Below the pieces are notes generated by a model that searched no databases, was not told where the DNA came from, and saw nothing but the letters and a program-made list of their open reading frames with translations. Both the position numbers and the translations under genes were made by a program. From the IMG/VR virus record IMGVR_UViG_3300028563_000021, positions 1-64,000 of that record: DNA of 64,000 nt; one strand, given 5' to 3'. Shown here one piece after another: positions 3,039-57,738 of this stretch (position 1 is its first letter; the number at the start of each line of letters is the position of its first letter). The stretch comes from a virus.

Positions 3039-3692
3039 ATGAAAATTGAAATTAAAAATAGGTTTAATAATTCTGTGCTTTTCTCGCATGACTGCGAAGA
3101 AAATACTTTGAAAATAACTTTATTGATGGCTCTCAAAGCTTCGGCCGACCTGCGTAGGGCCGACCTGCGCGAGGCCAATCTGGGCGGGGTCGACCTGGGC
3201 GGGGCCGATCTGGGCGGGGCCAATCTGCGCGGGGCCAATCTGGGCGGGGCCGACCTGGGCGGGGCCGACCTGGGCGGGGCCGACCTGCGTAGGGCCGACC
3301 TGCGCGAGGCCAATCTGGGCGGGGCCGACCTGGGCGGGGCCAATCTGCGCGGGGCCAATCTGCGCGGGGCCGACCTGGGCGGGGCCAATCTGGGCGGGGC
3401 CGACCTGCGCGGGGCCAATCTGGGCGGGGCCGATCTGGGCGATTTAAAGCTTGTTGGTGGCCGCCCCTTCATGCAAATCGGGCCAATCGGGTCTCGCAAT
3501 GATTATTTGACCGCATTCATCACCGATAAGGGCGTTCATGTCCAAGCCGGTTGTTTTTTTGGCTCACGCGATCAATTTGAATTGAAAGTTGCTGAATCTC
3601 ACGGCAGCAATGAGCATGGGAAAGAATACCGCGCCGCCCTCGTATTGATCGACGCTCACGCTGAAATTTGGACGCCGAAAGAGCCTGCGTGA
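3039..3692 (+). CDS. Pentapeptide-repeat protein
   Basis: 217 residues from ATG 3039, with TAGGAGAG just upstream. After about 38 residues a run of more than 20 pentapeptide repeats ([15 protein letters not shown]) occupies residues 39-150 and should form a right-handed quadrilateral beta-helix. A unique C-terminal domain of about 65 residues ([20 protein letters not shown]) follows. Known relatives include DNA-mimicking gyrase-protection proteins (Qnr, MfpA) but most have no assigned role. At DNA level the repeats are near-identical 15-bp units, so repeat number can change by recombination. Confidence 0.9.
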
Positions 3693-56329: not shown

Positions 56330-57716
56330 TTAAAGTTTGTCTACTTCGTTGTCATTCAAAGATTCCGGCTCGCCGAGCAAGCAGGACAAGTGCTGTAGCA
56401 GCTTGGAGCGGTACGCAGCCGTTACCAAGGGCGCGGAGTTGGGCCGAGCGATTGTCGAAGTCCAATGTATCGGCAAGCCCATGAGATTCTGCACAAAGTA
56501 TGGATTGGGTCTCATCGCTGATTGCCGGAGCGAGCCAGGGGAATCGATCGATGATTCCGAACCATCTGGTGTCGGCTGGGCCAGGGGCGAATAAAGGATG
56601 AATGCCGGTAAGCTCGGCCCCGACGGTCGATTGAAATGCTCCATCGTTTTTACCCCCCCCCACCTCTGATCTGTAGTCCCGTGCCGCTGGTGTCGACCAT
56701 TGGTACACAGTTTGTCGCAGCGACGGTGTATTGCGATTCATCTCTGAAGCACACACCCCGCGATTCATTTCCGATGCTTTTGGCGTAGGCCAATTCTCCA
56801 CATCCAGAATCAATGCCCTGTTGCGCTCGCCCTGTCCGCTGCGCTCCAATGCCGTCGGCATTATCCAGTGTGTCACCTGTTTCGCAAACTCGCCGCCCGC
56901 GCCAGCCTTCCCGGTTTCCGCTTCCATCCCCGACATTCCGTGCGGTGTCAGCCAGGTATTCGCTTGTGCCTTCAGCTTCGGCTCGCCGCGTGAGTTCCGC
57001 CCGCTGCCGCTCGCTTCCTCGTCCTTCGGCGTCTGCCAAAGCATTGCTTTCGCTTGATTTCCAAGTCCAGCTACTTGGCTTTTCCGATTGCTTCCTGTGT
57101 TCGGCGCTTCCGGCATCGAATCCGGCGTATCCCATTTTCCATGCGAGACAAAACCATCTTGCGCGACCATGCGAGGCACCCACGTCGGACGCAGAAATAA
57201 CGATCCATTCCGAATTCCACCCGAGGTCGGCCAATTCTCCCATGACTCTGGCGGCCGCGCGCTCGTCAAGTTCGCCTTCGGCTTCGCCCACAACGGAGGC
57301 GGTGGCAGTAGCGATGCCAGCGACGTTCTCCAAAAGGATGAATCGCGCACCGCTATCGGTTGCGATTTGAATGGCGTCGAAAACGAGTCCGCTTCGCTTG
57401 CCGTCAAGTCCTTCTCTGCGACCGGCAATAGATAGGTCCTGACATGGTGTTCCGGCAATGACGCAATCCACCATTCCGCGAAATTGCTTGGCTGGCAGTT
57501 CTCTAAAATCGCCGAACCAGATAGGCGCCGCATCCAGGCTTCCCTCTTCCATGCGCGCAGCCAAGACGCTGACAGGGTAAGCTTCCCGTTCAGCGTAGAG
57601 GATCGTTCGGCTTCGGATGCCCATGAACTCAAGTCCGGCAGAAGCTCCGCAATCGAACATTCCGACGCCTGCGCATAGGCTGATAATATTGAAGGTGAAA
57701 CTATCCACATTTTCAA
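56330..57716 (-). CDS. Overprinted protein overlapping the cytosine methyltransferase
   Basis: A second frame over the methyltransferase stays open for about 355 codons from ATG 57716 (MKMWIVSPSILSAYAQASEC). It has motifs repeated along its length, WPTPKASE, STPAARDYRSE and ENWPTSGGIRNGSLF, typical of phage proteins that overlap Dcm-like genes. As read it crosses the G9 tract into the methyltransferase's last exon-like segment. If one G is removed it instead reads PNPYFVQNLMGLPIHWT to TAA 56330, the family's usual ending. Role unknown. Confidence 0.65.
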
Positions 57717-57738
57717 GTTCCTTGAACTTATTTTTCAT
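56352..57738 (-). CDS. C5-cytosine DNA methyltransferase, frame broken at a G9 tract
   Basis: From ATG 57738. Motif I SLCAGVGM (20-27), IV TPCQ with catalytic C99, VI ENV (137-139), VIII GRARWF (191-196). As read the frame stops at TAA 56650, right after nine G (56653-56661 as C on plus). With eight G it continues through TRWFGIIDRFPWLAPAISDE to motif X RALGNGCVPLQAA and ends at 56352, about 460 residues. Probably protects phage DNA from restriction. Without the join the product lacks motifs IX-X and should be inactive. Confidence 0.8.

Follow-up and report, generated by a model that had tools for sequence, protein, structure and literature searches.

In the genome of a contractile-tailed phage, the gene for a C5-cytosine methyltransferase shares nearly its whole length with a second open frame on the same strand. 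This overlap is conserved among relatives, the methyltransferase motifs are divided between the two frames, and a G tract inside the overlap differs in length between relatives, leaving the ends of the two frames in one of three states. We are almost certain that a real second gene overprints the first. Comparison with other methyltransferases makes it probable that the two frames encode a two-subunit C5-methyltransferase, and our preferred reading, which we hold with somewhat less assurance, is that two subunits of one phage enzyme are encoded in fully overlapping frames, with slippage in the G tract shifting both at once.

Two overlapping frames at the methyltransferase locus

The window, i.e. 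the whole stretch of 64,000 nucleotides analysed here, comes from a virus record of 64,872 bases whose genes include those for a sheath, a baseplate, a terminase, a portal and a RecE-like exonuclease. The overlapping pair lies on the minus strand (57738-56330), and its upstream neighbours are a DnaB-like replicative helicase and a small ORF that matches a family of Holliday junction resolvases. A search of the methyltransferase region against Rfam gave no match. The two protein-like frames that a sequence-only reading had described here were recovered: frame A runs uninterrupted from 57738 to a TAA at the G tract and frame B from 57710 to 56352. Both are open over 1.06 kb, and frame B is +1 relative to frame A. 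The coordinates of the features are given in Table 1.

Table 1. Features of the overlapping methyltransferase frames in the window.
Feature	Coordinates	Strand	Basis
Frame A, predicted C5-cytosine methyltransferase catalytic subunit	56650..57738	-	PF00145 E 2e-26; phrog_29583 E 1e-73
Frame B as read with G9 (MWIVSPS..SFWRTSLASLLPPPPLW..W-TP cassettes, then off-register into A's tail)	56352..57710	-	open 452 aa
AAGGA Shine-Dalgarno (57723-57719) and twin start ATGTG (B ATG 57710, A GTG 57708)	57706..57723	-	same twin start in most relatives
W-TP cassette region, proposed target-recognition part, read in B	56662..57134	-	third-position variability is B's in relatives
G9 tract, proposed slippage site setting the register of both tails	56653..56661	-	relatives with G7-G10 at the same site
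Displaced A tail with motif X (GNGCVPL, ~56409-56426), now in frame B's register	56352..56652	-	relatives' A tails
Displaced B tail with motif IX-like NPYFVQNLMGLPIHWT (56459-56506), now in the third frame	56330..56649	-	relatives' B tails

Frame A carries motifs I-VIII in one chain, including SLCAGVG, PCQ (motif IV), ENV (motif VI) and HGRARWF, and is matched by the PF00145 profile. Its TAA (56650-56652) stands immediately 3′ of the G9 tract. The ATG of frame A shares bases with the stop codon of the upstream ORF (ATGA), and the alternative GTG start overlaps the ATG of frame B, which sits 8 nt after AAGGA. Among the relatives, the start of A usually lies at -4, +2 or +5 nt relative to that of B (ATGTGG, ATGACATGG), and a twin start of the form ATGTG or ATGACATG is found in most of them. 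Since the two starts are only a few nucleotides apart, a single ribosome-binding region could serve both.

Conservation of the overlap

Searching viral contigs with a single protein gave no matches. An alignment query was then built as a profile from the window and two Acidovorax phages, and it yielded 42 viral and 10 genome loci. About 40 relatives carry the pair, comprising IMG/VR phages, Acidovorax phages, prophages and alphaproteobacterial plasmids. Across these relatives frame B is uninterrupted over almost the entire methyltransferase, and the other alternative frame has many stops. To obtain a null expectation, synonymous codons were permuted within each gene, which preserves both the protein and the codon usage. 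For the window, shuffles of frame A predict 4.7±1.4 stops in frame B and none is observed (1/500 shuffles); the other alternative frame holds 15 stops, as expected. In the catalytic half of 32 loci, frame B contains 5 stops against 76.5±5.9 expected and is fully open in 27 loci, and in the cassette half of 24 loci, with the codons of B permuted, frame A contains 0 stops against 84.3±6.8 expected; the loci are akin, so that these pooled counts are non-independent tests, and many pairs share only 40–60% of residues. In most members frame B also runs past the stop of A.

The sequence-only reading had called both frames genes and had looked to relatives lacking an open second frame as the finding that would speak against this. 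This objection was not borne out: the openness of frame B through the catalytic half in the relatives, together with the stops introduced by shuffling, strongly supports overprinting. An open second frame is absent from distant relatives (L042, L043 and L053-L056), and the open frame is therefore a lineage trait. The Acidovorax MAG locus L052 has a nonsense codon in frame B at position 3466, in a conserved SWENWP segment. In the methyltransferase of Salmonella phage SEN5 (L061, 1026-2015), the +1 frame encodes W-TP cassettes and LNPELALWLMGLP; it is closed near the start and open later, so another methyltransferase subfamily may share the overlap. Copies of the SEN5 type are rare in E. coli.

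The overlap also explains misannotated records, in which frame B is called a methyltransferase or a hypothetical protein and frame A is missed. In the Acidovorax phages Alfacinha3 (L002, 2499-3665) and Alfacinha1 (L003, 2493-3626), gp46, annotated 'cytosine-specific methyltransferase', is frame B, and the catalytic frame is unannotated. The same pair occurs on alphaproteobacterial plasmids (Sphingomonas, Roseicitreum): the annotation of L062 (1414-2505) lists frame B as a hypothetical protein and misses the methyltransferase frame, and L063 (about 814-2079), where the annotation is partial, has the two frames open. Same-strand overlaps a kilobase long with both proteins conserved are, to our knowledge, rare in double-stranded DNA phages, and literature searches with partial coverage returned no description of such an overlap in phages.

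Division of motifs between the frames

Frame B of the window matches phrog_1008 and phrog_27243 and is homologous to frame B of L005, L006, L011 and L002; phrog_1008, 'DNA methyltransferase', is matched by 28 of 28 frame-B proteins. Frame-B proteins also match the C-terminal halves of single-chain mycobacteriophage C5-methyltransferases (E to 2e-10), in which the same cassettes and motif IX sit in frame with the catalytic domain. When compared with these C-terminal halves, frame B reached E values of 6e-14 and the same DNA read in frame A 3e-3 at best, and neither the third frame nor shuffled B gave a signal. The weak signal of the frame-A reading probably comes from motif X. With hhalign, frame B and the in-frame mycobacteriophage motif IX were aligned at 97.5% probability over the segment RRLNPxFxxWLMGWPxxW. 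At the level of sequence, motif IX is thus encoded in a separate polypeptide, as in M.EcoHK31I, by NPxFxxWLMGWP in frame B. Frame B therefore looks like the target-recognition and motif IX subunit of the same enzyme, a role that the sequence-only reading had overlooked. Since B matches the recognition and motif IX half of other C5-methyltransferases, we discarded the idea that it is a second gene unrelated to the first.

The W-TP cassettes of frame B, each of about 40 residues, differ in number and order between phages (L005-L050), like exchangeable modules. Read in frame A, the cassette DNA gives a low-complexity linker that is predicted to be disordered. Frame B alone is predicted to fold poorly, with a mean pLDDT of 49 and values above 70 only in the motif IX region; a sequence search of the PDB with B gave chance matches only. 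Translation of the first half of frame B could serve only to reach the second, the first half being a passenger.

The structure predicted for frame A of the relative L006 has an ordered catalytic domain matching M.HaeIII and M.HhaI and a confident motif X helix, and residues 212-292, in the place expected for the recognition domain, are disordered. Frame A thus does not hold a recognition domain and motif IX in the same chain as motifs I-VIII, and in the in-register relatives it carries motifs I-VIII and X. The loss of motifs IX and X from frame A at the tract, proposed earlier, is borne out for motif X, which lies in the displaced A tail. It does not apply to motif IX: the IX-like segment lies in the tail of B, so IX was not lost from A, which never had it.

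The variability of codon positions shows the same division. Among twelve close relatives, the ratio of variability at the third to that at the first position of A exceeds 1.5 in most of motifs I-VIII, lies largely at 0.4–0.95 in the cassettes and motif IX, and is about 3 at motif X. Of the differences in the stretch from the last cassette through LMGWP, 53% fall on the third position of B, i.e. the first position of A. This pattern assigns motifs I-VIII and X to A, and the cassettes and motif IX to B. In the catalytic half, differences are distributed over A positions 1, 2 and 3 as.32/.11/.56 at 85–90% identity, compared with.24/.20/.56 at 80% identity in a 450-codon gene; as this is the one usable control gene and it differs too little, the evidence for dual constraint in the catalytic half is the depletion of stops. 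With so few control genes, depressed third-position change in that half is not claimed.

If this reading is true, the overlap has a testable reason: the two frames would be the two halves of one enzyme, and for each part of the DNA the main constraint would come from the half that has its motif there. Frame A would supply motifs I-VIII, in a large catalytic domain that binds AdoMet, together with motif X at its end. The contribution of frame B, which starts 2–5 nt off in most relatives, would be motif IX and a target-recognition part made of a variable number of W-TP cassettes. The two polypeptides would assemble into one enzyme, as in M.EcoHK31I, and may methylate the phage DNA.

A G tract and the register of the tails

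The tract is exactly nine C on the plus strand, and there is only one other G/C run of at least 7 in the 64 kb. That run is a C8 (2957-2964) just upstream of an ORF with pentapeptide-like repeats. On the 3′ side of the tract, the tail of A is in the frame of B and the tail of B is in the third frame. The displaced A tail is 51–58% identical to the A tails of relatives (E down to 5e-30), with 53–58% for L005, L006 and L011; the displaced B tail, ending 22 nt past the A tail, is 43–52% identical to the B tails of these three loci and matches the relatives' B tails with E down to 8e-20. From these matches, one net base separates both frames from their tails, and the earlier observation that a single base change repairs both frames holds.

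Fifteen loci, counting the window, have a run of 7–10 G at one position in the last cassette, and the effective lengths of these runs fall in all three phases. Within the ACAGnCAGGAAGCACATGG subtype, the G8 loci (L007, L011, L065) are in register and the G9 (L015, L066) and G10 (L012) loci are off-register, as is L008 with G7; L071, of the same subtype, is off-register through the loss of an A beside the tract. Taking all types together, 9 of the 15 tract-bearing loci are off-register as against 1 of 26 without a tract (Fisher p=1.2e-4). Two kinds of tail swap are seen. B takes the motif X tail of A in the window, L009, L013, L015 and L066, and A takes the motif IX tail of B in L008, L012, L046 and L071. 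State also differs between loci that are nearest to each other in the tree (window/L006, L015/L065, L007/L046). L047 is off-register with only GGGTGGGGGG. The tract is dispensable, as L021 encodes the same stretch without one. In the more distant relative L066, frame A is short and further G runs of at least 7 lie along the gene in addition to the last-cassette tract.

The locus thus has a simple repeat in a coding frame that differs in length between relatives, and the occurrence of all three phases and the excess of off-register loci among those with a tract fit phase variation of both subunits at once. The phase-variation switch proposed from the sequence alone was upheld in the comparison of relatives, where sister phages differ, and found no counterpart within one population: a pattern search for near-identical copies of the window's tract returned none, nor any near-identical genomes with different tract lengths. 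On the sequences compared, we put heritable switching at the tract at even chances. In many members slippage in the last cassette would shift both frames together. The ON state would have both tails in register; in the off state represented by the window, A would be truncated and B would gain motif X, and in the other off state A would gain the tail of B and B would be truncated. We infer that frame B is translated, that the subunits assemble and are active, that switching takes place in vivo, and that the modification would have an anti-restriction or epigenetic use. If true, a single homopolymer setting both subunits would be an unusual phage route to switching DNA modification. A bolder reading, somewhat less likely than not, is that the cassettes of one frame form a recognition array subject to recombination and that length changes in the tract reversibly switch both subunits and swap their tails; the dual-coded gene would then hold a three-state modification switch.

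Alternative explanations

Frame B might be no protein at all but a frame kept open by codon or composition bias in GC-rich DNA, its resemblance between phages mirroring frame A. Open alternative frames are common in GC-rich genes, and the first half of B is rich in Ser, Pro and Arg, like accidental frames, and has a poor predicted structure. However, many stops appear on shuffling when protein A and its codon usage are preserved, the fast position in the cassette half is the third of B and not of A, B is homologous to in-frame regions of other C5-methyltransferases, and most members extend past the stop of A; we find this explanation hardly credible. Programmed frameshifting, with translation starting in A, shifting to B for the cassettes and motif IX and returning for motif X, would make the tract a site of RNA slippage instead of a heritable switch. 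G runs are known slippery sequences, and A dominates both ends of the gene and B the middle. Such a mechanism, however, requires two shifts, and leaves the conserved start and open 5′ half of B and the open cassette half of A superfluous. In-register members that have no G tract also speak against it, and we judge it very unlikely.

The remaining explanations concern the off-register loci. Tract-bearing genes might be decaying, with indels in the tract as the first hits, as the nonsense codon in frame B of L052 and the short A frame and several G runs of L066 would suggest; but the damage clusters at the tract and is not spread along the gene, and the frames are otherwise intact in the window and in most off-register relatives, which makes decay quite unlikely. 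A real overlap and a split enzyme could also be combined with sequencing or assembly errors in G homopolymers, the genes being truly always in register with no switch. Most tract-bearing records are metagenomic contigs without reads, and a search for tract variation within a population found none. On the other hand, 'plus' and 'minus' states both occur, in unrelated samples, the off-register L008 has an isolate-type IMG identifier, L047 is off-register without a longer run than GGGTGGGGGG, and L071 owes its state to a base beside the tract. Such errors are, in our estimate, an unlikely cause.

Comparison with known methyltransferases

In M.EcoHK31I, too, the small subunit is encoded in an overlapping alternative frame. 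The phage locus is divided in the same way, into motifs I-VIII and X on one side and IX on the other, but its second frame spans the whole gene and starts beside the start of A in most members. It also differs in being carried by phages, in often holding a variable G tract and in having W-TP cassettes as the proposed recognition part. M.EcoHK31I (YGGCCR) consists of two polypeptides, a large subunit with motifs I-VIII and X and a second one with motif IX, and its recognition domain is assigned to the large subunit (PMC3404938). For the phage enzyme, recognition is proposed to reside in the small subunit B, as the cassettes evolve as B and frame A is linker-like there; this departure from M.EcoHK31I counts against the proposed reading.

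M.AquI is a C5-methyltransferase split into I-VIII and IX-X (PMC3404938). In the Mycobacterium phages Eagle and A10ZJ24 and the Streptomyces phage Euratis (L057, L059, L060) the methyltransferase consists of two adjacent genes, the second of which is in the +1 frame and carries cassettes, IX and X. The phage pair studied here resembles M.AquI and Eagle gp78/gp77 in being divided after motif VIII into catalytic and recognition halves, the second half being +1 in Eagle as well. In M.AquI and the split mycobacteriophage methylases, by contrast, motif X goes with the second half, and the annotated genes of the phage pairs overlap by few bases or none. DLane-like phages have a single-chain methyltransferase with a remnant +1 frame.

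In the DNA methyltransferases of phasevarions, the length of a simple repeat inside the open frame sets ON or OFF. Here too a simple repeat lies within an open frame and its length would set the state, but the tract is carried by phages and would shift two overlapping proteins at once and, beyond truncation, swap their tails. The multispecific C5-methyltransferases of Bacillus phages (M.H2I and relatives) have tandem recognition modules (PMC8936443). The W-TP cassettes of the phage enzyme studied here, which vary in number and order, may be modules of this kind; they lie in a separate frame, unlike those of the M.H2I group.
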